Of a stretch of 46,703 bases of DNA, positions 31,857 to 44,470 are shown one piece after another. Position 1 is the first letter of the stretch, and the number at the start of each line of letters is the position of its first letter. This DNA comes from Chloroflexota bacterium. Its GTDB lineage: Bacteria; Chloroflexota; Limnocylindria; Limnocylindrales; CSP1-4. The stretch lies in contig JAJYNJ010000072.1 of assembly GCA_021786385.1 (NCBI GenBank), forward strand, positions 1 to 46,703, read 5' to 3'. The translations under genes were made by a program, and so were the position numbers. The notes beneath the pieces were generated by a model. It had not been told where the DNA came from, ran no database searches, and was given only the letters and a program-made list of their open reading frames with translations.

Positions 31857-34800
31857 TCATGCCTCGCGCGCCTGAGACGCGGCGGCGCGGCGCGCCGGCG
31901 CCGCCGCGTGGCCCCCCTCGCCGTCCACAACCCGCAGGCCGGTCGGCGGCCGCCCGGCCGCCTCGGCGAACGTCACGTCGGTGAGCGGCACGAGCGGCTC
32001 CCCGCGCAGGACCCGCGCCAGATATTCGCCCGTCGCGGAGGCGGTCACCGCGGCAATCCGCTCCGGCGTCCCTTCGGCGACCACCAGGCCGCCCCGTGCC
32101 CCGCCCTCGGGCCCCAGGTCGACGATCCAGTCGGCCGTCTTGATCACGTCGAGGTTGTGCTCGATGACGATCACCGTGTTGCCCGCGTCCACGAGCCGGT
32201 GCAGCACCTGCAGCAGCTTCTCGACGTCCGCGAAGTGGAGCCCGGTGGTGGGCTCGTCGAGCACATACACCGTGCGCCCCGTCGCGCGGCGCGACAGCTC
32301 GGTGGCCAGCTTGACGCGCTGTGCCTCGCCGCCGGACAAGGTGGTCGCGGGCTGACCCAGGTGGATGTACCCCAGTCCGACGTCGTTGAGCGTTTGCAGC
32401 TTGTGACGGATCGCCGGGACTGCCGAGAAGAGCTCGAGCGCCTCCTCCACGGTCATCTCGAGGACGTCCGCGATCGACCGGCCCCGGTAGTGGACCTCCA
32501 GCGCCTCGCGGTTGTAGCGCTTGCCCTTGCAGACCTCGCACGGCACGTACACGTCCGGCAGGAACTGCATCTCGATCTTGATGATCCCATCGCCCTTGCA
32601 GTTCTCGCAGCGGCCGCCCTTCACGTTGAAGCTGAAACGCCCCGCCCGGTAGCCACGCAGCCGCGCCTCGGGCACCCCCGCGAAGAGCTCGCGGATCGGG
32701 CCGAAGACGCCGGTGTAGGTGGCCGGGTTGGACCGCGGCGTCCGGCCGATCGGGCTCTGATCGATCTCGATCACCTTGTCGACCGCCTCGAGGCCCTCGA
32801 TCCGATCGTGTTCGCCGGGCTCCTCGCGCGAGCCGTAGAGCGCCTTGGCCAGGCCGCGGTAGAGCACCTCCTCCACCAACGTGCTCTTGCCCGACCCAGA
32901 GACGCCCGTCACCACGATGAAGGTGCCGAGCGGAAACGCGACGTCGATGTTGCGCAGGTTGTGGGCGCGCGCACCGCGGACCACCAACGCCCGTCCGTTG
33001 CCGGGGCGGCGCCGCGCCGGGATCGGCACGAACCGTTCGCCCCGCAGATACGCACCGGTCAACGAGCGGGGTTCGGCGATGATCGCCTCCACCGGGCCGG
33101 CCGCCACGACTTCGCCGCCGTGTTCGCCGGCCCCTGGGCCGATGTCGACCACCCAGTCGGCGGTACGGATCGTCTCTTCATCGTGCTCGACCACGATCAG
33201 CGTGTTGCCCAAGTCCCGGAGGCGCGTGAGGGTCGCGATCAGCTTGGCGTTGTCGCGCTGGTGCAGCCCGATCGACGGCTCGTCCAGGATATAGAGGACG
33301 CCCATGAGGCTCGACCCGATCTGCGTCGCGAGGCGGATCCGCTGGGCCTCCCCGCCCGACAGCGTCTGGCTGGTCCGGTCGATGGTGAGGTAATCGAGCC
33401 CCACGTCGACGAGAAACCCGAGCCGCGCGCGGATCTCCTTGAGCACCTGGCGGGCGATGGTCGCCTCGCGCTGCGAGAGGCGCGGCGGCAGCCCGGTGGC
33501 CCACTCGAGCGCCTCCGTCACCGAGAGCGCCGCCACGTCGGCGATCGTCTTGCCGTCGATCGTCACGCTGAGCGCCTCGGGCCGCAGCCGCTTCCCGTTG
33601 CAGGCCGGACAGGGTCGCTCGACCATATAGCGCTCGATCTCGGACTTGACGTACTCCGAGTCGGTCTCACGGTAGCGCCGCTCCAGGTTGGGAACCAGCC
33701 CCTCGAAGGTGGCCTCGTACGAGTTCTCGCCGCGCTCGTGCCGGTAGCGCACCACGACCCGTTCGCCGCGCGGGGCATAGAGCAGGTACTGCAGCGCCTC
33801 CTCCGGCAGCTCGCGGACCGGTACGTCGGTGCGGAAGCCACGCCGCTCGGCGATCTCCTCGATGATCCGGAGCTGCCACGACTGCTCCATGGGCATGCGC
33901 GCCCAGGGCTGCAGCGCGCCCTCGCGGATCGACAAGTCTCGGTCGGGAATGAGCCGCGCCGGATCGATCTCGAGGCGCACCCCGAGTCCGGTGCAGGCGG
34001 GGCAGGCACCATGTGGCGAGTTGAACGAGAAGCTGCGGGGCTCGAGCTCCTCGAGGATCGTCCCGTCGAACGGGCAGCTGTAACGTTCGCTGAAGCGCTG
34101 CTCCTCGAACGTCCCCGGCTCGGCCGGCGCGACCACCATGACGCCCTCGCCCAGGCGGAGCGCGGTCTCGACCGAGTCGGCCAGGCGCGCCTGGTCGGGG
34201 TTCGGATGGTCCGGCCCGTACGGGACGCCGTCCGGATCGGCCCGGCGGACGACGAGGCGATCGACCACGACCTCGATGGTGTGCCGCTTGTACTTGTCGA
34301 GGCTGCGGACCTCATCGAGGTCGAGCAGTTCGCCGTCGACACGGACGCGGACGAACCCCTGCTTGCGCGCGGCCTCGAAGACGCGGTCGCCTTCGGTCTT
34401 GCGATCCTTCACCAGCGGACCCAGGATCAGCAGGCGGGTGCCGTCGGGCAGGGCCTGAATCCGGTCGACGATCTGCGGCACGCTCTGGCGCGTGATTTCG
34501 CGCCCGCAGGCCGGGCAGTGCGGGTGGCCGACGCGGGCGAAGAGGAGCCGCAGGTAGTCGTAGACCTCGGTGACGGTGCCGACCGTCGAGCGCGGGTTCC
34601 GACCGGCGCCCTTCTGGTCGATCGAGATGGCGGGGCTCAGGCCGTCGATCTGGTCGACGTCCGGCTTCTCGATCTGCCCCAGGAACTGGCGGGCGTACGC
34701 GGAGAGGCTTTCGACGTACCGACGCTGCCCCTCGGCATAGATCGTGTCGAAGGCGAGGCTGGACTTGCCGCTTCCCGACAAACCGGTGATCACGATTAGC

Positions 34801-34880
34801 CGGTCGCGCGGCAACTCGACCGTGATGTTCTTGAGGTTGTGCTCGCGGGCACCGCGAACGACCAGGAGCTCCTGCGGCAT
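31857..34880 (-). CDS. uvrA: UvrABC excinuclease subunit A
   Basis: This 1007-residue damage-recognition ATPase has two ABC modules. Walker A1 is GLSGSGKSS (33-41), signature 1 [19 protein letters not shown], Walker A2 [10 protein letters not shown], signature 2 [15 protein letters not shown]. Zinc finger 2 is CENCKGDG followed later by [10 protein letters not shown]. In zinc finger 1 the first pair is C269-P-F-D272 instead of CxxC, while the second pair C293/C296 is intact. Another pair, [10 protein letters not shown], is present near residue 122. ATG at 34880 lies eight bases after TACACT. A LexA-like box overlaps the -35 position, so SOS control is likely. It is downstream of lysA but has its own promoter. 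Confidence 0.97.
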
Positions 34881-34888
34881 ACCGCGTC

Positions 34889-34924
34889 AGTGTAGCCGCC
34901 AGCAGTCATTTCGAACAGATGTGC
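34889..34924 (-). promoter_or_regulatory. uvrA promoter with LexA/DinR-like SOS box
   Basis: The -10 TACACT (34889-34894) ends eight bases before the ATG. The box GAACAGATGTGC (plus-strand reading, 34913-34924) covers the -35 position. With flanks it matches the DinR/LexA consensus CGAACRNRYGTTYC at 12 of 14 positions. The same 12-mer stands before uvrB. Confidence 0.6.
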
Positions 34925-34949
34925 GAGTGCGCGGGCGGCGCGGTCTGCT

Positions 34950-36296
34950 TCACCAGCTGGGGATCCGTTGACGTTCGACCAGGTCTGACGGGTCGAGCCG
35001 TGGTCGCACGAGGACGGCTCGGCCACCGCTGGCTGCCACCTCGGCCGGTCCTGGATGAGAGAGGAACCAGGGCATCGATTGCGTGAATCCGTATGCGCCC
35101 GTGTCGAGGAAGGCCACGAGGTCCCCGGGCGCGGGGCGCGGGAAGGCATCCGCCCGCCCCAACACGTCGAGTCCGGTGCAGAGCGGGCCGGTGAGGACCA
35201 CCGGCACGGACGCTCGATCCGCAGGTCCGTCGGACGTGACCAGCCGCATGCGGTGTGCCCGGCCCGGGAGCGCGGGTGCCAGGAGATGGTTGATGCCGCC
35301 ATCGAGGATCGTGACGTAGCGGCCATCGAGCCGCTTGACGTCGACCACACGGGCGAGGTACGCGCCGGCCGGTCCGGCAAGGTAGCGTCCCGGCTCGACC
35401 AAGATCCGCAGCGCCTCCAGAGCGGGGTCGGCAGCCGCATCACGCAACACGCGTGCCACCCCGGCCGCGAACACGGCGAGGTCCAGCGGCGTGTCTCGCT
35501 CGCCATACGGAATCCCGAGCCCACCCCCAACGTCGACGAGCCGCAGCGGGAACCCTGCGGCGTGGGCCAACCGGCGTCCGGCCGCCACAGTGCGCCCGAC
35601 GTGGTCGACGAGGACGCGTGCGTCGAGCACGGCCGACACGGTGAAGGCGTGCACGCCGAGCGGGTCGAGGTGCTCGGCCTCGACCGCGCGACGCGCCGCT
35701 GCGAGCGCATCCTCCCCGTCCATGCCGAACACCTGCCCGGCACCATGTCCACGGCCAGCGCCCGAGTCGCCCGGGTCGGCGACGCGGAACAGGAGCCGCG
35801 CGCGTCGATCGGCGCGCGTCAGTGCCTCGATGCGCGCGACCTCGCCCGGCGAATCGACCGCGATCGCGCGCACGCCGAGCTCCACGGCCCGACGTAGGAG
35901 CGCGTCGCTCTTGCCGGGCCCGGTGACGACGATCGACGCAGGGGCGATCCCCGCATGCAGGGCCGCGGCGAGCTCGCCCTCCGACGAGACGTCGGCCCCG
36001 ATGCCGGTAGCGCGCAGACGGGCGATGACCGCGAGGGATGGGTTGGCTTTGACCGCGTAGGCGACGTCGACCTGGTCGGGCAACGCCGCGCGCAGCCGCG
36101 CCGCGCGGCGGGCCAACGCGTCGAGGTCGTAGACGTAGAGGGGCGTGCCAAACCGCTCGGCAAGCGCGCGGGGATCGCAGCCGGCCAGCTGTTCGGCCTG
36201 CCAGACCTCGTCGGGCGTCTCGTGGCTGGCGCCGGCGGCATCGGTTACGGGGTCCTGCACCGGCGTCTCGCCCGTCGCCGGACGATCGCCCCTCAC
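34950..36296 (-). CDS. lysA: Diaminopimelate decarboxylase (PLP-dependent, fold III)
   Basis: This 448-residue enzyme of the last lysine step converts meso-diaminopimelate to lysine. The PLP lysine is in [13 protein letters not shown]. Further marks are [39 protein letters not shown] and the active-site Cys of the partner subunit in [12 protein letters not shown]. Related PLP decarboxylases of other substrates share this pattern, but the operon context argues for LysA. The GTG start at 36296 overlaps the dapD stop as GTGA; about 38 residues precede the usual N-terminus. It is the last gene of dapB-dapA-dapD-lysA. Confidence 0.92.
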
Positions 36297-37150
36297 CGGA
36301 GCGCTCCCTCGATGGCCGTCCGGGCCGCGGTCGACGTGTCGCGCCGTTTCACGATCGCCGCGCACTGCAGCCCGATGCCGTGCTCGGCGGCGAACTCGCC
36401 GGCAGCCGACCGAGTGGCTGGCACCACGACCGCTCCGGGCGGCACGACGAGCGGCGCCTCCGGCGTTCCTTGCAGGAGGCGGCCTTCGACCAGGTCGTAG
36501 AGCCGGCTCGTGCCCGTCAGGATCACGCCCGCCGCCAGGACGGCGCCCCGCCCCACGAGGACCCCGTCGAAGAGACCGCACTGCGCCCCCACGAACGCCT
36601 CGTCCTCGACGATCACGGGACGCGCGTTCGGCGGCTCCAGGACGCCGCCGATCTGGGCCCCGGCCGCGAGATGGACGCGGGACCCGATCTGCGCGCACGA
36701 GCCGACCAGCACGTGGGAATCGACCATGCTCCCCTCCCCGACCCAGGCGCCGATGTTGATGAACGACGGCGGCATCACGACGACGCCAGGACCCAAGTGC
36801 GCGCCGGCGCGCACGCTGGTGCCGCCCGGCACCACGCGCCACGGCCCGTCGGCGAGGCGCTTAGTGGGCAGCCGCGACCGGTCGCGGAACTGCAACAGGC
36901 CGTCGAGCTCCCAGCTGCGCGTGGCCGGGTCCCGGAAGAGTGCCAGCAGCGCTTCGCGCAGCGCTACGTCCACACGCCATCCATCGGGGGCTCCCGGATC
37001 GGGCCACGCCGCCCGCCGCCGCCCCGCATCGAGGTCGTCGAGGAGCTGCTGCGCGGCGGCAGCGTCGGCCGCCGCCGCCGCGGCCCCAGCCACCTCCGCG
37101 GCCCCAGCCACCTCCGCGGCCCCGGCCGACCCGCCCGCCTCGGCGGTCAC
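36293..37150 (-). CDS. dapD: 2,3,4,5-tetrahydropyridine-2,6-dicarboxylate N-succinyltransferase
   Basis: This 285-residue left-handed beta-helix acyltransferase opens the succinylase branch of lysine synthesis. Its hexapeptide domain contains VVVMPPSFINIGAWVGEGSM, VDSHVLVGSCAQIGSRVHLA, AQIGGVLEP and VIVEDEAFVGAQCG, all in the DapD order. The N-terminus is Ala-rich and encodes an exact 18-base tandem repeat. GTG at 37150 overlaps the dapA stop as GTGA. The next enzymes, DapC and DapE, are not in the window. Confidence 0.93.
   Translation of the reverse strand: MTAEAGGSAGAAEVAGAAEVAGAAAAAADAAAAQQLLDDLDAGRRRAAWPDPGAPDGWRVDVALREALLALFRDPATRSWELDGLLQFRDRSRLPTKRLADGPWRVVPGGTSVRAGAHLGPGVVVMPPSFINIGAWVGEGSMVDSHVLVGSCAQIGSRVHLAAGAQIGGVLEPPNARPVIVEDEAFVGAQCGLFDGVLVGRGAVLAAGVILTGTSRLYDLVEGRLLQGTPEAPLVVPPGAVVVPATRSAAGEFAAEHGIGLQCAAIVKRRDTSTAARTAIEGALR
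37082..37117 (+). repeat. Exact 18-base tandem repeat inside dapD
   Basis: GGCCCCAGCCACCTCCGC is repeated twice head to tail. On the coding strand it gives the repeated AAEVAG in the N-terminal Ala-rich stretch of DapD. Confidence 0.8.
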
Positions 37151-38175
37151 GCTGCGCCTCCGCCCACCGCGACGACGTCGGTCGCCCCCACCGGCGTCGC
37201 GCTCGCGGCCGGCGTCGTCGCCAGCAACCCCATCTCGCCCAGCAGCGCCGCCAGCCGGTTGCGCGCCGGTGCGTCGAGCGGCAACAGGGGCAAGCGCAGA
37301 CGGTCCTCGATGAGCCCCATCATCGACAACGCAGCCTTCACCGGCACCGGGTTCGGGCCACCCCGGAAGTTGGCGCGGAAGAGCGGCAGCCAGCGGTCGT
37401 GGAGGCGCCGCGCGAGCGCCCAGTCGCCGGATCGCGCAGCCGCGCAGAGCGCCACCATCTCGGCCGGGATCTCGTTCGACGCCACGCTGATCACGCCCTC
37501 GCCGCCCATCGCCAGGACGGCGAGAGTCCATGCGTCATCGCCCGCCATCACCGCGAACCCAGCGGGTCGGTCACGGATGATGGTCGCGATCTGCTCCAGG
37601 TTCCCCGAAGCTTCCTTCACCGCCACGATGCGCGGGTGCTCCGCGAGACGCAGCGTCGTCTCCGCCTCGACATTCGAGCCTGTGCGCGACGGCACGTTGT
37701 AGACGACGACCGGGAGCCCGCCTTCGTCGGCGACCGCCGTGAAGTGCGCAGTCAGCATGCGCTGGTCCGGCCGGTTGTAGTACGGGGCCACCACCAGCGC
37801 GGCGTCCGCGCCGAGTTCTGCGGCGCGCCGCGTGGCCCGGATCGTGGCGGCCGTGTCGTTGGTGCCGGTCCCGGCCACCACCGTGACGCGGCGTTGCGCG
37901 GCGGCGAGCGTCGCGGCCTCGACGGCGGCCGAGATCACGCGCTCGCGTTCCGCTGGGGTGAGGGTCGGCGATTCGCCGGTGGTGCCACAAGGCACGAGCC
38001 CATCGATACCGGCGCGGATCTGCCAGGCCACCAGGCGCTGGAGCGCGGCCTCGTCGAGCGCACCGTCGGCGTCGAACGGCGTCACGAGCGCCGTGAACGC
38101 GCCGCTGATCTGCGGCGCGGAACGCGCACGGTCGGGGTCTGGGGGAACGGGTTGCGGGCGGAATCCGGCGTTCAT
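37147..38175 (-). CDS. dapA: 4-hydroxy-tetrahydrodipicolinate synthase
   Basis: This 342-residue TIM-barrel aldolase condenses pyruvate with aspartate semialdehyde. Marks are GAFTALVTPFDADGALDE, GLVPCGTTGESPTL with the Thr-Thr-Gly-Glu pyruvate site, VVAPYYNRPDQ with the catalytic Tyr pair, YNVPSRTG, and the Schiff-base lysine in IVAVKEASGNLEQ. It is about 45 residues longer than usual, mostly in an Ala/Val-rich C-terminal tail and a 30-residue N-terminus. ATG at 38175 follows GAGGAG at good spacing; a GTG at 38199 is less likely. It follows dapB by 70 bases. Confidence 0.95.
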   Translation of the reverse strand: MNAGFRPQPVPPDPDRARSAPQISGAFTALVTPFDADGALDEAALQRLVAWQIRAGIDGLVPCGTTGESPTLTPAERERVISAAVEAATLAAAQRRVTVVAGTGTNDTAATIRATRRAAELGADAALVVAPYYNRPDQRMLTAHFTAVADEGGLPVVVYNVPSRTGSNVEAETTLRLAEHPRIVAVKEASGNLEQIATIIRDRPAGFAVMAGDDAWTLAVLAMGGEGVISVASNEIPAEMVALCAAARSGDWALARRLHDRWLPLFRANFRGGPNPVPVKAALSMMGLIEDRLRLPLLPLDAPARNRLAALLGEMGLLATTPAASATPVGATDVVAVGGGAA

Positions 38176-38245
38176 CGTGCGTCTCCTCGAGTACGCCACA
38201 CCCTGATCCGGCGTGGGCTGGGGGTTACTCGCATGGGTCGGGGCG

Positions 38246-39058
38246 TCAGCGCGCGGCCACGGCCGCGACGCTCGCTGTCAACTCGGTCGGCGCCGGCACC
38301 CCGGCGGCCGAACGTCCAGCGACGAGTTCGTCAACCACCTCGTCGAAGGAGTGGAGCCCGGGTGCGCGGGGCGTCGCCAGCAGCCATTCGGCCGCCGCGA
38401 TCGCCCCCAACGCATAGGCCGAGCGGTCGCGGGCCGTGAGCCGCAACTCCACCGTTTCGCCGGGCGCGTCGAAGCCGACGAGGTGCATCCCCGGGGCCGA
38501 TCCAGCACGGATGCTGCCGACCTCGAGCTCGTCGGGGCGCAGCGGGCCGCTGCGCGCCCGATCGGCCAACTGGCGCTTGACGGGATGCGCGGCCAGGATG
38601 CGCCGGGAGAGCTCCAGCGCGGTACCCGACGGTCGATCGGCCTTCCCCTGCCGATGCCACTCGAGCACGTACGGGTCATACGCGGGCAGCGCTCCGAACA
38701 TGTGCGTCGCCAACTCCACGAGGCGCGCCAGCAGGTTGACGCCTGGACTGAAGCTCGGGGCTGCGACGGCCGCCGCCCGGTGCTGGTTCAGGAGCGCCGT
38801 CAGCTCCGCCGGGGTCACCGTCCACGCCGTGGTGCCCACGACGAAGCGCCGGCAGCCGCCGGCCAGCGCGGCCGCCAGGTTCGGCAGCACGGCAGCGCCG
38901 CGGGAAAACTCGAAGGCCACGTCGACCCCCTCGAACGCGCCGGGCGGGTGGGTGGTATGCGGCCGTCCGAGCACCGCACAGACCTCGTCTCCGCGCTCGG
39001 CGAGTCCCGCCGCCAGCGCCCTGCCCATCGGCCCGTCACCCAGCACGATCGCACGCAT
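38246..39058 (-). CDS. dapB: 4-hydroxy-tetrahydrodipicolinate reductase
   Basis: This 270-residue NAD(P)H enzyme takes the second step of the diaminopimelate branch. The Rossmann start is MRAIVLGDGPMGRALAA, with G at 7, 9 and 12. FEFSRGAAVLPNL and VVGTTAWT follow. The catalytic segment is YVLEWHRQGKADRPSGTALEL, shown by EWHRQGKADRPSGTAL, in which the usual HH pair reads WH. ATG at 39058 follows GAGGAGG, which can be hidden in a small hairpin. First gene of the lysine operon, behind the leader described at 39118-39302. Confidence 0.94.
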   Translation of the reverse strand: MRAIVLGDGPMGRALAAGLAERGDEVCAVLGRPHTTHPPGAFEGVDVAFEFSRGAAVLPNLAAALAGGCRRFVVGTTAWTVTPAELTALLNQHRAAAVAAPSFSPGVNLLARLVELATHMFGALPAYDPYVLEWHRQGKADRPSGTALELSRRILAAHPVKRQLADRARSGPLRPDELEVGSIRAGSAPGMHLVGFDAPGETVELRLTARDRSAYALGAIAAAEWLLATPRAPGLHSFDEVVDELVAGRSAAGVPAPTELTASVAAVAAR

Positions 39059-39066
39059 CTTGCCGT

Positions 39067-39080
39067 CCTCCTCTCGGAGG
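39067..39080 (-). promoter_or_regulatory. Hairpin over the dapB Shine-Dalgarno
   Basis: In the RNA, CCTCC (39080-39076) and GGAGG (39071-39067) can pair around GAGA, a GNRA tetraloop. The GGAGG is the dapB ribosome-binding site, so the fold would mask it. Confidence 0.5.
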
Positions 39081-39117
39081 GGCCTAAGGCTGGAGATCCG
39101 ATCCGTCCGGACACACG

Positions 39118-39151
39118 AAAAAGCCGCGGACCACCTGCTGGGTTCCGCGGC
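39118..39151 (-). terminator. Intrinsic terminator in the dapB leader (attenuator)
   Basis: GCCGCGGA (39151-39144) pairs with TCCGCGGC (39130-39123), with an inner ACC/GGT extension, followed by TTTTT (39122-39118). It is 60 bases before the dapB ATG and is the only hairpin with a U-tract that I found in the window. It lies inside the transcript of its own operon, which indicates attenuation. Confidence 0.75.
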
Positions 39152-39156
39152 CCTTC

Positions 39157-39205
39157 GGGACCTCCGTGCCTGGAGGCCCCGTTCGTCGTCTGACGCGAAG
39201 CCTCC
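39157..39205 (-). promoter_or_regulatory. Competing hairpins between leader ORF and terminator
   Basis: GGGGCCTCC (39180-39172) pairs with GGAGGTCCC (39165-39157) in nine pairs with one G-U. Alternatively, GGAGGC at the leader stop codon (39205-39200) pairs with the GCCTCC part of the first arm (39177-39172). The two folds exclude each other. A further candidate antiterminator pairs GCGGCCC of the leader ORF (39232-39226) with GGGCCGC of the terminator arm (39153-39147). Confidence 0.5.
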
Positions 39206-39264
39206 TAGGCCCGTGCCTCCCGGCAGGGCCGCCAGAGCTTCGCCTTCAGCGCGACGTGGTTCAT
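39205..39264 (-). CDS. Putative leader peptide of the lysine operon
   Basis: ATG at 39264 opens a 19-codon frame, MNHVALKAKLWRPCREARA, ending in TAG. It has AAG lysine codons at positions 7 and 9 and three arginines. No Shine-Dalgarno precedes it, but the -10 TATCGT ends nine bases upstream, so the transcript would begin within a few bases of the ATG. Its last seven codons (39226-39207) can fold on themselves through GGCCCTGCC and GGCACGGGCC. It lies upstream of a terminator and of genes that make lysine, the layout of ribosome-mediated attenuation. The peptide matches no leader that I recognise, and two lysines are few for a classical leader. Confidence 0.5.
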   Translation of the reverse strand: MNHVALKAKLWRPCREARA

Positions 39265-39273
39265 GATGTGCGG

Positions 39274-39302
39274 ACGATACCGGCTGCCGGGCCGGCTGTC
39301 AA
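39274..39302 (-). promoter_or_regulatory. Promoter of the dapB-dapA-dapD-lysA operon
   Basis: On the minus strand, a perfect TTGACA (39302-39297) is followed by exactly 17 bases and TATCGT (39279-39274). This is the best sigma-70-type promoter in the window. The expected start point falls at about 39264-39269, at or next to the leader ATG. Confidence 0.8.
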
Positions 39303-39545
39303 CGCGTGGCCGCGGCGGCCAGAGGTCGCGCTGGACGCGTGCCCGCGGCGGCCAGCGCCCTGCCCAACGCCCTGCCGTGCGGCCGCAGCGGCCCAGACCG
39401 TGCACTTCACGTGCCATCGTCACGCGCGATCGGATCGACGGGACCCGGGCCCGCCACACCAGTCCGCGGCCAGCGGGGCCACCCCCTGGCCGCAGCGGCC
39501 CGAGCCTGCGTCTGTACGGGCCGCCTGCGGCCCGGGACCGAGCCC
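39303..39545. other. Intergenic region upstream of the dap promoter
   Basis: No gene is recognised. Short duplicated blocks occur, CGCGGCGGCCAG (near 39309 and 39349) and GGCCGCAGCGGCCC (near 39382 and 39488). GGGCCG-CCTG-CGGCCC near 39519-39534 could form a hairpin after the UspA gene, without a T-tract. Confidence 0.4.
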
Positions 39546-40007
39546 CTATACGCGCACCAGCAGCACCGGGCACGGCGCGTGGTCCACCACGAAACGCGAG
39601 ACATGCCCCAGGCTGTGTGGGGCGGCAGGGGTCCGAACGTCACCCGGTCGGGCCGCGACCACCACCAGCGACGCGCTGAGCTCACGGGCGCGCGCCACGA
39701 TCTCCTGTTCGGGCCGCCCTCGCCGGACTGCAGTCGCGGCCGGCTGCCCCAGCGCCGCCGCTGCCCGTTCCAGGATCACCGTGCTGCCGCGCCCTTCGAC
39801 GTCGCGCACGCGCGCGTCGAAGTCTGGCGGGCGCGGATGCCCCGGCCGGCGCGCGAACTGCATCCCCAGTTCCCAGGCCGGCGCTTCGTCGATCACGTGG
39901 AACAGCTCCACCGCGGCGTCGGACGGGAGCAGCCGGCGCACGCCCTCCCAGAACGGCTCGCTCTCCGCCCCGGCCACCGCCACCAACACCACTGCGCGTT
40001 CGGACAT
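39546..40007 (-). CDS. UspA-type universal stress protein
   Basis: This 153-residue single-domain protein of the UspA fold shows an early beta strand AVVLVAVAG, a middle GRPEQEIVARARELSASLVVVAA, and the C-terminal nucleotide-loop equivalent HSLGHVSRFVVDHAPCPVLLVRV (shown as GHVSRFVVDHAPCPVLLV). The glycine-rich ATP loop is incomplete (AARPGDVRTP...LGHVS), so ATP binding is uncertain. ATG at 40007 has GAGGGGAGG before it. It lies 25 bases after the ArsB/SLC13-type permease and is likely co-transcribed with it. Confidence 0.85.
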   Translation of the reverse strand: MSERAVVLVAVAGAESEPFWEGVRRLLPSDAAVELFHVIDEAPAWELGMQFARRPGHPRPPDFDARVRDVEGRGSTVILERAAAALGQPAATAVRRGRPEQEIVARARELSASLVVVAARPGDVRTPAAPHSLGHVSRFVVDHAPCPVLLVRV

Positions 40008-40032
40008 CGTCCCCTCCCCTCGGAGCAGCGCC

Positions 40033-41295
40033 CTACCGGAGCAGGGCCACCATCAACAGCGTCGACACGATCAGGATGGGCGGGGTGGTGAGGAGGCCGA
40101 CCCGTAGGTAGTCGATCGGCCGCACCTCCAGGCCGCGCTCGCGGAGGATCAGCAACCAGAGCACGGTGGCGAGCGAGCCGACCGTCGTCAGGTTCGGCCC
40201 GAGGTCGGCGCCGATGATCGTGCCGTAGGCGGCTGCCTCGCGGACGCTCCCCGCTAGGTGCGCCCCGTTGATGCCACTCACCATCACGAGCGTCATGGGG
40301 ACATTGTTGACGAGGTTGGAACCCGCGGCCGCCACCAGGCTGGCGGCGATCCCCGCCAGCGCGGGCGAGCCGCTCGCCCAGGTGAGCACGGAGCCCACGA
40401 CGCGCCCGACCACACCGAGCCGCTCGAGCGCCGTGACGAGCACGACCATCCCGCCCACGTAGCCGAGGATCGGCCAGCTGACGCCCTCGAGCGGCCGCGG
40501 ATAGAGCCTCCCGGCCGCAGTGGCCTCGAGCGCGAGGAGCAGCACGAACCCTGCGCACGCCACCACGCCCAGCGGCGCGCCGAGCAGCCCTCCGACGAGG
40601 AACGCCGCCGCGACGATGGCCAGCCCCGCCCAGACGCGGGGCACCCGCGCGCCGCCTGGGTCGGCGCTGCCGGATGGCAGACGACGCGGCACGTCGTGCC
40701 GGAAGCGCCAGACGAGTGCCGCGCCGGTGAGCCCCGCCGCGGCGAGGGCAGCCGGTTCGATGGACCGCAGGTAGTGTGGCAGCGGCAGCCGCAGCCCATC
40801 GAGCACCAGCAGGTTCACCGGGTTGCTCACCGGCAGGATCAGCGACGCCGCGTCGGCGATGAACGTGCACGCCAGCACGTAGGGTAGGGCGTCGATCCCG
40901 AGGGTCACCACGAGCCCGTAGACCACCGGCGTCAAGATGAGGGCGGTGGCGTCGTTCGACAGGAACGCGCTGATGGCCACGCCAAGCCCGATCACGGCCA
41001 TCAGCAGCCGCAGTCCGCTGCCGGCGGCAAGCTGCTCCGCCAGCACAGCAGCCCGCACGAAGAAGCCGCTTCGTTCGGCGACGGCGGCGAGGCCCGTCAT
41101 CCCCACGAAGAAGGCGAACACGTTCCAGTCCGCGGCGACCGCCCGCGCCGCCTCCGCGGCACCGACGAGGCCGAACCCGATCGCGATCACCGCACCGGCG
41201 ACGGCGGAGGCCCACTCGGGGATGCCGCGGGGCCGTGTGATCGTGGCTGCGACCACGGCCAGGAAGAGGACCGTGCCGAAGAGGGCCGGCAACAC
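40033..41295 (-). CDS. ArsB/SLC13-like anion permease
   Basis: The 420-residue membrane protein has about eleven to twelve helices of the ion transporter superfamily. Marks are FAFFVGMTGLAAVAERSGFF, AFLSNDATALILTPVV and the related second-half SNLVNNVPMTLVMVSG, the paired SNDATA/NNVP hairpins expected of ArsB and SLC13 carriers, plus GADLGPNLTTVGSLATVLW. Arsenite, dicarboxylate or sulfate are possible substrates; no ars gene is near. GTG at 41295 has TACGCT six bases before it, which suggests a leaderless mRNA. It is divergent from the DJ-1 gene. Confidence 0.87.
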   Translation of the reverse strand: MLPALFGTVLFLAVVAATITRPRGIPEWASAVAGAVIAIGFGLVGAAEAARAVAADWNVFAFFVGMTGLAAVAERSGFFVRAAVLAEQLAAGSGLRLLMAVIGLGVAISAFLSNDATALILTPVVYGLVVTLGIDALPYVLACTFIADAASLILPVSNPVNLLVLDGLRLPLPHYLRSIEPAALAAAGLTGAALVWRFRHDVPRRLPSGSADPGGARVPRVWAGLAIVAAAFLVGGLLGAPLGVVACAGFVLLLALEATAAGRLYPRPLEGVSWPILGYVGGMVVLVTALERLGVVGRVVGSVLTWASGSPALAGIAASLVAAAGSNLVNNVPMTLVMVSGINGAHLAGSVREAAAYGTIIGADLGPNLTTVGSLATVLWLLILRERGLEVRPIDYLRVGLLTTPPILIVSTLLMVALLR

Positions 41296-41301
41296 GCCGG
41301 G

Positions 41302-41307
41302 AGCGTA
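41302..41307 (-). promoter_or_regulatory. Putative -10 box of the ArsB/SLC13-like gene, leaderless
   Basis: TACGCT ends six bases before the GTG start and no Shine-Dalgarno intervenes. Confidence 0.45.
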
Positions 41308-41370
41308 CCCGAGAGGCGCCCGGGGCGCCGCCGGCCGGCCCGCTCACGCGCGTACCGGCCGGCCAGCGCC

Positions 41371-41465
41371 TAGAATCGCGGGTGTCCGCGCCGGCCGACG
41401 GAGCCCATCGCGAGCCCGGAGGAGCCCATTTCCCCGCCCGGCGCTCCGCCGGGCCCGCGTAGGGT
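41371..41465 (+). promoter_or_regulatory. Possible promoter and 5' leader hairpin of the DJ-1 gene
   Basis: TAGAAT, five of six matches to the -10 consensus, lies at 41371-41376. A seven-pair hairpin, CCCGGCG-CTC-CGCCGGG, is at 41437-41453 and a second -10-like TAGGGT is at 41460-41465. Either box could serve the gene starting at 41494. From the first, the 5' leader would be about 110 bases and include the hairpin. Confidence 0.35.
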
Positions 41466-41493
41466 ACGCGCGCGGTCGATGAGGAGGTCACAG

Positions 41494-42030
41494 ATGCGGC
41501 TCGAGGGAATGCGCATTGCGGTGCTCGCCGCGGAAGGCGTCGAGGATCTTGAGTATTGGGTCACCGTGATGCGCCTGCGTGAAGAGGGCGCGCGCGTGAC
41601 GAGCGTCGGCGTGGCGCCGGGGACCGTGCACGGCAAGCATGGACTGCCGGTGACGGTCGAGGCCGCCGCCGCGGATCTCGATGCCACGACGGTGGACGGG
41701 CTCGTGGTGCCCGGCGGCTGGGCGCCCGACAAGCTCCGGCGTGACGCCGCGGTGACCGATCTCGTGGCAGCGGTCGACGCGGCCAGGAAACCGATCGCGA
41801 TCATCTGCCACGGCGGCCTGGTGGCGATTTCGGCGAAGATCGTGGCGGGCCACCGGGCCACCGGGTCGCAGGGGATCAAGGACGACCTGGCGAACGCCGG
41901 CGCCACCTGGGTGGACGAGCCGGCCTTGCGGGACGGCCACATCGCCTGGGGGCGCGTGGTGGACGACATTCCCGCGTTCCTGCGCGAGACCGTCGACCTC
42001 TTCGCCGAGCACCGCGCGCGCCGGAGCTGA
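41494..42030 (+). CDS. DJ-1/PfpI family protein
   Basis: This 178-residue class I glutamine amidotransferase-like protein begins MRLEGMRIAVLAAEGVEDLEY, with the conserved Glu in the VEDLEY region. GLVVPGGWAPDKLRRD and the nucleophile elbow AIICHGGLVAISA with its Cys follow, then VAGHRATGSQGIKDDL and ATWVDEPAL. Relatives include the YhbO/PfpI stress proteins reported as chaperones or deglycases. ATG at 41494 follows GAGGAGG. Its 3' end faces the end of uvrB, 40 bases away. Confidence 0.92.
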   Translation: MRLEGMRIAVLAAEGVEDLEYWVTVMRLREEGARVTSVGVAPGTVHGKHGLPVTVEAAAADLDATTVDGLVVPGGWAPDKLRRDAAVTDLVAAVDAARKPIAIICHGGLVAISAKIVAGHRATGSQGIKDDLANAGATWVDEPALRDGHIAWGRVVDDIPAFLRETVDLFAEHRARRS

Positions 42031-42070
42031 ACCGGGAACGGACCGGCCCGCGACGGCGCCGCCGCGGGCC

Positions 42071-44470
42071 TCAGCGGCGCCGCCGCGGCCGCTGGCCGGT
42101 CCGACGGATCACGTTGGGCGTCACGCGGTGGTCCCACGTCTGACGATCTAGCCACTTGGCCTGCCAACCACCGGCCTCTTCGTGTTCGTCGCGGATGCCG
42201 GGGAACCAGTCGGAGGCAGTCCCTTCGTCGCTCGCGGTGCCGTCCCCGCCGGCCAGGGCGAGCGACGGTTCTTCGGCCGCGCGGAGTACCTCGACGGAGG
42301 CGACGCCGACACCGTGCGCGTCGATGTCACGTTCGGCGCGTGCCCGTCGGCCCGCGCGTTCGGCGCCACCACCTGGCACGCCACTCGGGGCCGCCGCCCG
42401 GCCACCTCGCCCGCTGGCCCGACCTTCCACCCGCGCCGCCCGTTCCGCGGCCCGCTCCACCTGCAGTGACGCATCCTCCTCGAGCACCCGGAGCCGGATC
42501 TGCTGGATCTCGTCCCGGATCGCGGCGGCCTTCTCGAACTCGAGCTCGCGCGCCGCGGCACGCATCTCGGCCTCCATGCGGGTCACCAGCTCGTGTATCT
42601 GCTCGCGGCTCATCTCAGAGAGCTCGCGCCCACCGCCCGCCGACGCGACGTACGCGCCGGGCGCCTCGGCCACCGCACGCAACCGGTCGTTGAGGTCGTG
42701 TACCTCCTTCACGATGGTCGTGGGTTGGATGCCGTGCTGTTCGTTGTACGCCTGCTGGATCCGCCGCCGCCGCTCCGTCTCCTCGATCGCAACGCGCATC
42801 GAGTGCGTGATCGTGTCGGCGTACATCACCACCTCGCTGCCGGTGTTGCGGGCGGCGCGCCCAGCCATCTGGATCAGCGACCAGGCGCTGCGCAGGAACC
42901 CTTCCTTGTCGGCGTCGAGGATGGCGACCAGGGTCACCTCGGGCAGATCGATCCCCTCGCGGAGCAGGTTGATCCCGACCAGCACGTCGTAGACGCCCAG
43001 GCGCAGGTCGCGCAGGATCTGGACCCGCTCGAGCGTGTCGATCTCGCTGTGCAAATAGGCCACCTTCACACCCAGATCGCGCAAGTACTCCGCAAGGTCC
43101 TCGGCCATCTTCTTGGTGAGCGTGGTGACCAGTACCCGTTCGCCGCGCGCGACCCGCCCGTGGATCCGGTCGAGCAGATCGTCGATCTGGCCGCGGGTCG
43201 GCCGCACCTCGATCGGCGGGTCGACGATCCCGGTGGGGCGGATCAGCTGCTCCACGACCTGCTCGCTGCGCTCGAGTTCCCAGGCGCCAGGCGTCGCGCT
43301 CATGTAGATGACCTGGTTCAAGTGCGCTTCGAATTCTTCGAAGGTGAGGGGTCGGTTGTCGAGCGCCGACGGCAGCCGAAACCCGAAGTCGACCAGGATC
43401 TCCTTGCGCGTGCGATCGTTCTTGTACATCCCGACGACCTGCGGGATGGTCATGTGGCTCTCGTCGACGATCAGCAGCCAATCCGGCGGGAAGTAGTCGA
43501 GCAGCGTCCAGGGACGCGATCCGGCGGGGCGCCGAGCCAGGTGGCGGGAGTAGTTCTCGATCCCGGAGCAAAAGCCCAGCTCGCGCATCATCTCGAGGTC
43601 GAAGGTCGTACGTTGGCGCAGGCGGGCCGATTCGAGCGCACGCCCCTCGGCATCGAGCTGCGCACAGCGCTCCTCCATCTCGGCCTCGATGTCGACGATC
43701 GCGGCCTGCAGCTTGTCGGCGGGGGTCACGTAGTGCGAGGCCGGGTAGATCGCGACCTCACTGCGCTCGGCCAGAACCTCGCCGGTGAGCGGATCGATCT
43801 CCACGATCCGTTCGACCTGATCGCCGAAGAACTGCACGCGCACCACGAAGTCGTCGTAGGCGGGCTGTACCTCGAGGGTGTCGCCGCGAACGCGGAACCG
43901 GGCGCGCTGGAGCGCCTGGTCGTTGCGCTGGTACTGCAGGTCCACGAGTTGGCGCAGGACGCCGTCGCGGCGGTATTGTCCGCCGACGCGCAGCCGGATG
44001 ACGGTCGCGCCGTAATCGACCGGGGCGCCCAGGCCGTAGATGCAGCTGACGGACGCCACGATGATGACGTCGCGTCGCTCGAAGAGGGCGCGGGTGGCGG
44101 CGTGGCGGAGCTTGTCGATCTCGTCGTTCCGGCTCGAGTCCTTTTCGATATAGGTATCGCTGCGCGGCAGGTACGCCTCGGGCTGGTAATAGTCGAAGTA
44201 GCTGACAAAGTACTCGACGGCGTTCTCGGGAAAGAACTCCCGGAACTCGCTGTAGAGCTGCGCGGCCAGCGTCTTGTTGTGAGCCAGCACCAGCGTCGGC
44301 TTCTGGTGGCGCGCGATCACGTTCGAGATCGTCCAGGTCTTGCCGGACCCGGTGACCCCCAGCAGCGTCTGGTGCTTCATGCCGTGCGCGAGCCCCTCCG
44401 CCAGGCGCTCGATCGCCTGCGGCTGGTCGCCGGTCGGTTGAAAGGGGGCCACGAGCTGGAACGGAGGCAT
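42071..44470 (-). CDS. uvrB: UvrABC excinuclease subunit B with long C-terminal extension
   Basis: This 799-residue damage-verifying helicase-like subunit has Walker [11 protein letters not shown], the beta-hairpin region [20 protein letters not shown], motif II-like VDESHM, and the later helicase motifs [20 protein letters not shown] and QMAGRAARN. The UVR domain is [20 protein letters not shown]. About 129 residues follow it, first Arg/Gly/Ala-rich and then ending in [21 protein letters not shown]. coli UvrB stops at the UVR domain. ATG at 44470 was chosen over an in-frame GTG at 44476, because TAGTAT ends only three bases before the GTG, whereas it stands nine bases from the ATG. A LexA-like box covers the -35 position. 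Confidence 0.96.

Follow-up and report, generated by a model that had tools for sequence, protein, structure and literature searches.

Ribosome-mediated attenuation of the trp/his type is a long-known class of regulatory mechanism. The control of lysine genes in bacteria is known as the territory of riboswitches (or T-boxes), and L-box and S-box riboswitches and T-boxes control in other phyla the same pathways as those considered here. Attenuators have been described for trp, his, leu, thr, ilv, and phe (PMC1183508), and as of 2010 leader peptides were known only from Proteobacteria, Actinobacteria, and Firmicutes, the last being new in that work (PMC2965389). The his attenuator has an additional hairpin, placed after the first one and ahead of the terminator, that limits read-through once the ribosome has been released (PMC1183508). 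The trpL attenuator of Sinorhizobium meliloti has a leaderless ORF, and SEP5 of the same bacterium is a possible Thr/Lys leader peptide in front of an aspartate pathway gene (PMC10117765). In Actinobacteria, no RNA element was found before lysine or methionine operons, and the mycobacterial cys operons were reported to have Cys leader peptides without any terminator or conserved hairpin being found, for which Rho was suggested (PMC1262725).

The locus analyzed here is the 147-nt leader between a promoter and the dapB gene on the minus strand of a 46,703-nt stretch of Chloroflexota DNA (hereafter the window). We consider it very probable that this leader is a ribosome-mediated transcription attenuator sensing charged lysyl-tRNA. 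Its antitermination logic, as modeled by folding, is that of a classical attenuator to which one more hairpin has been added, like the his leader of Salmonella and E. coli: a leader peptide with control codons is followed by three hairpins in the terminated state, which are re-paired in the antiterminated state. The differences from the his attenuator are that two or three spaced Lys codons replace the run of His codons, that the ORF itself contains the 5' half of the antiterminator, at a distance of 5 nt from the control codons, and that it is predicted to be leaderless; no sequence similarity was noted. With the trp attenuators, the leader shares the small number of control codons and the U-tract terminator and, in the rhizobial case, the leaderless ORF, whereas the amino acid, the phylum, and the pairing scheme are different. 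The mycobacterial cys leaders resemble the Cys-slot paralogues described below in having an ORF with Cys codons ahead of cysteine genes, but here the terminator and the antiterminator are explicit and common to Lys and Met leaders. SEP5 likewise has Lys codons in a 5'-UTR ORF; however, its codons form a mixed Thr/Lys cluster, it is alphaproteobacterial, and no attenuator structure is reported in the passage describing it. In contrast to the L-box, S-box, and T-box systems, the leader contains an ORF with control codons rather than an aptamer or a specifier loop.

The first gene under the leader is dapB, encoding 4-hydroxy-tetrahydrodipicolinate reductase (38246-39058, minus strand; PF05173, 1.7e-25), and the remainder of the lysine operon consists of dapA, dapD, and lysA (34950-38199, minus strand; start codons only approximate). 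The dapA and dapD products exceed the cut-offs of TIGR00674 and NF008808, respectively. The scores of the dapB and lysA products are below the NCBIfam cut-offs (TIGR00036, 97.8 bits versus 122; TIGR01048, 274 bits versus 298), but their Pfam domains and the operon context leave little doubt about these sequence-based assignments. The minus strand also carries, upstream of the leader (39546-41295), genes for a universal stress protein and an ArsB/CitMHS-type transporter, which have no evident connection to lysine.

The promoter, the 19-codon ORF, its AAG codons 7 and 9, and the U5 terminator, all named in a preliminary description of this DNA, can be read directly between 39302 and 39118. The promoter (39302-39274) consists of TTGACA (39302-39297), a 17-nt spacer, and TATCGT (39279-39274), and is the only sigma-70-like site found by the promoter scan in the region 33000-43000, where 0.2 are expected. 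The leader ORF (39264-39205) starts with ATG at 39264-39262 and encodes MNHVALKAKLWRPCREARA, each of the leader peptides quoted here being followed by a stop codon. The ATG follows the end of the -10 hexamer by only 9 nt, which makes a leaderless ORF probable, and the mRNA is predicted to have no 5' leader or nearly none. In related leaders, a strong promoter-like site was observed in 26 of 58 cases (mean 1.6 and maximum 4 in shuffled sequences), and the distance from the end of the -10 hexamer to the start codon is 9-11 nt in 24 of the 26 leaders with a recognizable promoter.

The control codons (39246-39238) are two AAG triplets, codon 7 (39246-39244) and codon 9 (39240-39238), that occupy slots -5 and -3 when codons are numbered backward from the CGG of the motif NNG-CGG-CCC. 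Segment a, GCGGCCC (39232-39226), the 5' half of the antiterminator, lies within the ORF, 5 nt past the last Lys codon. Hairpin 1 (a:b; 39230-39208), GGCCCUGCC GGGA GGCACGGGCC, is present in the minimum free energy (MFE) structure without a ribosome and in the consensus structure, and in this genome the Lys-codon stretch also pairs, as the lower stem, with bases after 39204. The alternative helix 2:3 (39210-39168), inferred from the MFE structure with a ribosome masked at codon 7, pairs GCCUAGGAGGC (39210-39200) with GCCUCCAGGC (39177-39168). Hairpin 2 (39181-39156), obtained by folding, pairs CGGGGCCUCC (39181-39172) with GGAGGUCCCG (39165-39156); it is located where the his attenuator has its extra hairpin, and its role is inferred by analogy (PMC1183508). 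Segment d, GGGCCGC (39153-39147), belongs to the 5' arm of the terminator and is the alternative partner of segment a. The intrinsic terminator (39151-39118) comprises GCCGCGGA (39151-39144), a loop, UCCGCGGC (39130-39123), and U5 (39122-39118). The MFE of the whole leader is -88.9 kcal/mol (z -6.0), and none of 200 shuffled sequences was as stable. A simple terminator scan of the 33-43 kb region listed four other, weak sites, the leader terminator not being among them. The interpretation does not depend on the statement of the preliminary description that this is the only hairpin with a U-tract found in 46.7 kb.

Rfam searches of the window at gathering and relaxed thresholds gave no match, including to the L-box aptamer and the T-box, and a search of nine related loci also gave none, in agreement with the initial view that neither known type fits the locus. 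The sequence GGTGGTCCGCGG at 39135-39124 resembles a T-box motif; it is part of the 3' side of the terminator and is not conserved. A T-box interpretation based on AGGTGGTCCGCGG on the same side was dropped for lack of conservation and of Stem I.

To compare the alternative structures, the leaders were folded up to the position just before the 3' arm of the terminator, while a ribosome-sized mask was moved codon by codon, at equilibrium. In the dapB leaders, the mean probability of the a:d pairing is 0.32 without a ribosome, 0.88 when a ribosome occupies the first Lys codon, and 0.92 when it is one codon before the last Lys codon; it is 0.22 on the last Lys codon, 0.00-0.05 on the following codons, and at most 0.01 from two codons on. 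Across three ribosome footprints, the value at slot -5 is 0.86-0.95, and the choice of footprint shifts the edge by one codon. The profile of 73 Met/Cys leaders (see below) is like that of the Lys leaders, with 0.82-0.86 at slots -5 and -4 and 0.00 from slot -1. Thus, in these models alone, the antiterminator excludes the terminator and is exposed with the ribosome on the control codons. In about one third of leaders, a:d dominates even without a ribosome. With the ribosome at the stop codon, the equilibrium mean of a:d is about 0.4-0.8, depending on the footprint, so that low basal read-through would need fast release and re-formation of hairpins 1 and 2; by inference, kinetics would have to prevent a:d pairing at this stage.

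For the window itself, the unstalled fold consists of hairpin 1, hairpin 2, and the terminator in a row, all of them compatible. The two upstream hairpins (39230-39208 and 39181-39156), which were first thought to be mutually exclusive, are thus predicted to form together, and together with the terminator. The stalled fold is one long rod, in which 39232-39225 pairs with 39154-39147 and encloses helix 2:3 (39210-39200 with 39177-39168). This re-pairing of three consecutive hairpins in the antiterminated state was seen for the window by folding only.

The named relatives of the locus are records of "Chloroflexi bacterium" and "Candidatus Limnocylindrales bacterium". Searched with blastn, 62 of 107 genomes of the family of the window have the leader before dapB; a covariance model, R1, built from 27 diverse leaders raised this to about 64 of the 107 and added G071 and G171, which belong to another family of the same class. 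Among 400 genomes of the phylum, the covariance model gave no match at E<=0.01 outside the class; two out-of-class model matches, in G213 and G280 (L257 and L258), proved false, lacking the cassette and preceding unrelated genes, and the weak matches L260, L262, L270, and L271 were likewise judged false.

We aligned 60 distinct dapB leaders from the start codon through the terminator. In essentially all relatives, an ORF starting with ATG (rarely GTG) reads through this motif in an unchanged frame. Each dapB leader has two to four Lys codons; slot -3 holds Lys in 60/60 and slot -5 in 56/60. The distance from the last Lys codon to GCGGYCC is 5 nt in 59/60 leaders; the exception is G071 (L021), which has one extra base downstream of the Lys codons, so that the frame changes there and the RNA motif is intact. 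The RNA from the Lys codons to the terminator is strongly conserved, and the peptide stretch WRPCREAR is kept in most dapB leaders. A terminator was found in nearly all leaders; by eye, L038 is without a recognizable 3' arm. The Lys leader of G071 has a GTG start and lies (G071:C5:140094-140251, minus strand) about 380 nt from a divergent Met leader (140632-140751, plus strand). A very divergent dapB leader, L025 (G018:C160), encodes VITSWLKRRKQRSPAEAVGR from a GTG start and has a terminator with U5 and little of the GGGCCGC arm.

The ORF codons before the slot drift without a preference for synonymous changes, and in the coding-selection test on the leader peptide the substitutions outside the control slot are spread evenly over codon positions; nothing points to selection on the peptide sequence, and constraint appears limited to the slot and the RNA. 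Free drift of the other ORF codons is expected if the control codons alone matter. Segment a shows the opposite of what coding selection would produce: CGG and CCC do not vary at their fourfold degenerate third positions, and the first base of CCC is replaced by U in eight leaders, a change of Pro to Ser that keeps a G-U pair. Drifting codons and frozen third positions together suggest that the Lys codons are what counts in the peptide, and that the downstream stretch acts as RNA. The slot Lys codons are AAG in 133 of 137 cases, and thus a nucleotide motif and a Lys codon cannot be separated using the dapB leaders alone.

The pairing of GCGGCCC with GGGCCGC, proposed in the preliminary description as the antiterminator, is indeed the conserved one: each of its first seven pairs is kept in 93-100% of 136 leaders. 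Watson-Crick pairs occupy 911 of 952 a:d cells, compared with a shuffle mean of 910, so there is no excess, the helix being too invariant for covariation. The pairing counts are slightly low, since segment d was anchored automatically and the anchor was misplaced by one position in L057 and incorrect for a few Met/Cys leaders. Two-sided compensation in a:d was read by eye in L042 (GCGGCCU with AGGCCGC) and L057 (GCGGUCC with GGACCGC), and the terminator stem, the best-supported consensus helix, has two-sided changes at four of its pairs. With so little variation in the helices, covariation gives only weak evidence; the compensatory changes in the aligned sequences are consistent with an attenuator, but they are few and do not prove it. 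An alignment of relatives had been set beforehand as the test of the initial proposal: conservation of the ORF, the Lys codons, and the a:d pairing was confirmed, but a:d covariation did not rise above that of shuffled alignments. The refuting condition set with the proposal, a lack of conserved helices or of the ORF among relatives, was thus not fulfilled. With the Lys slot, spacing, frame, and pairing kept in the 60 leaders, a lysine leader-peptide attenuator before dapB-dapA-dapD-lysA, as originally suggested, remains the best reading of the locus.

Stronger evidence than covariation is provided by codon-swapped paralogues. Among the second-tier matches of the first covariance model, some 33 encode Met-slot leaders, such as MNHTCVSWNMCMRWRPRRAEDGV, that share GCGGCCC, GGGGCCGC, and the terminator type with the Lys leaders and have Met at slots -5 and -3. 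Most of them precede metY, encoding O-acetylhomoserine sulfhydrylase (TIGR01326 and PF01053, well over the cut-offs), and Met is found at -3 in 46/46 leaders preceding this gene. A mixed covariance model, which was then used, revealed a third kind with a Cys slot, MDSSRFTCLCPRRPRRRR and its relatives, located before a serine O-acetyltransferase gene (cysE/epsC; matches to TIGR01172 and NF041874, the latter above the cut-off); Cys occupies -3 and -5 in 6/6 leaders before cysE/epsC. The genome of the window itself has two further cassettes: L163 (G000:C60:3232-3367, plus strand), encoding VSQIAVAPNMCMRWRPRRAEEGV with a Met slot before metY, and L206 (G000:C52:14378-14505, minus strand), encoding MSHQPRACVCMCRRPRRPEDGV, which contains Cys codons and precedes a NirA/sulfite-reductase-like gene. 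Met-slot leaders also occur before OsmC-like, carbonic-anhydrase-like, ABC transporter ATPase, and threonine synthase genes.

Across the Lys, Met, and Cys leaders, segments a and d and the terminator are constant, and the slot codon tracks the downstream pathway. In our judgement, this change of the slot codon with the pathway is decisive evidence for ribosome-mediated sensing, and on the genomic evidence it is difficult to account for a swap matched to the pathway by anything other than ribosome-mediated transcription attenuation. It is likely that Limnocylindria use one cassette with a constant antiterminator and terminator and an exchangeable two-codon slot for Lys, Met, or Cys as a sensor for several pathways, whose specificities arose by duplication and codon swap; shared ancestry of the cassettes, rather than convergence, is inferred.

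Several individual cassettes have unusual contexts. The leaders before threonine synthase (thrC), L223 and L263, have a Met slot (M-A-M); a control of thrC by Met codons may perhaps relate to the shared homoserine branch. L266 (G034:C121:5492-5587, minus strand) encodes MACCCCRRRPRSREDVVRKD, with four Cys codons, before a gene for a small membrane protein, putatively of the DUF4395 kind. On G045:C253, tandem cassettes (L023 and L195) are arranged as a Met-slot leader and a carbonic-anhydrase-like gene followed directly by a Lys leader and dapB.

A strongly conserved RNA stretch from the Lys codons to the terminator, with a very stable fold, would also be expected of a new lysine-binding riboswitch, in which the RNA itself senses lysine and the ORF is incidental. 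We regard this as very unlikely, given that the frame and the start of the ORF are kept, that the slot codon is what changes with the pathway while a, d, and the terminator do not, and that Rfam provides no riboswitch match. It is still harder to credit that the end of the nascent peptide, WRPCREAR or RRPRR, stalls the ribosome on a ligand, even with WRPCREAR retained in so many dapB leaders: the L021 leader of G071 retains the Lys codons and the RNA, but its insertion frameshifts precisely this stretch, the Pro to Ser changes are tolerated if the pairing is kept while third positions are frozen, and the paralogue peptides end differently.

The near-universal terminator could in principle be a constitutive partial terminator of conserved shape, with translation being irrelevant, but this leaves the ORF, the invariant Lys slot, and the Met/Cys swap unexplained, and we give it hardly any credence. 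We hold the same view of attenuation with the reversed sign, where a ribosome at the stop codon frees segment a and plentiful lysine raises read-through. Equilibrium folding does pair a:d at the stop codon too; however, such a response is contrary to the need of a biosynthetic operon, a:d is highest with the ribosome stalled at the Lys slot, and in the usual kinetic scheme release and hairpin re-formation counter it (PMC1183508).

Under attenuation by a ribosome that senses charged lysyl-tRNA, the (nearly) leaderless 19-codon peptide would be translated while the leader RNA is transcribed. When lysine is sufficient, the ribosome would pass the Lys codons and cover segment a; after its release, hairpins 1 and 2 would re-form, segment d would pair with the 3' arm of the terminator, and transcription would stop at about 39118. 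Under lysine shortage, the ribosome would wait at codon 7 (or 9), leaving a exposed and keeping hairpin 1 from forming its lower stem; this would let helix 2:3 form, a would pair with d, and the terminator would be precluded, so that RNA polymerase would continue into dapB-dapA-dapD-lysA. The parts, their conservation, the fixed codon slot, and the pathway-matched swap are visible at the level of sequence, and the exclusivity of the pairings is established in folding models; in the absence of RNA-seq, ribosome profiling, and genetics, translation of the ORF, the kinetics, the shortage of lysyl-tRNA as the signal, and derepression as the sign of the response are inferred.

Like the preliminary description, which knew of no lysine leader-peptide attenuator of this form, we found no lysine or methionine leader-peptide attenuation described in the open literature searched, subscription attenuator surveys being outside its scope. 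Within the searchable open literature, lysine and methionine attenuation, a shared cassette with exchangeable codons, and the occurrence in Chloroflexota all appear to be undescribed. If true, Lys and Met attenuators in Chloroflexota would widen the known lists of amino acids and phyla. The cassette with its two-codon specificity would represent a natural codon-swap experiment on the duplication of attenuators and the change of their specificity, and it may offer a compact and predictable part in which changing two codons changes the sensed amino acid.
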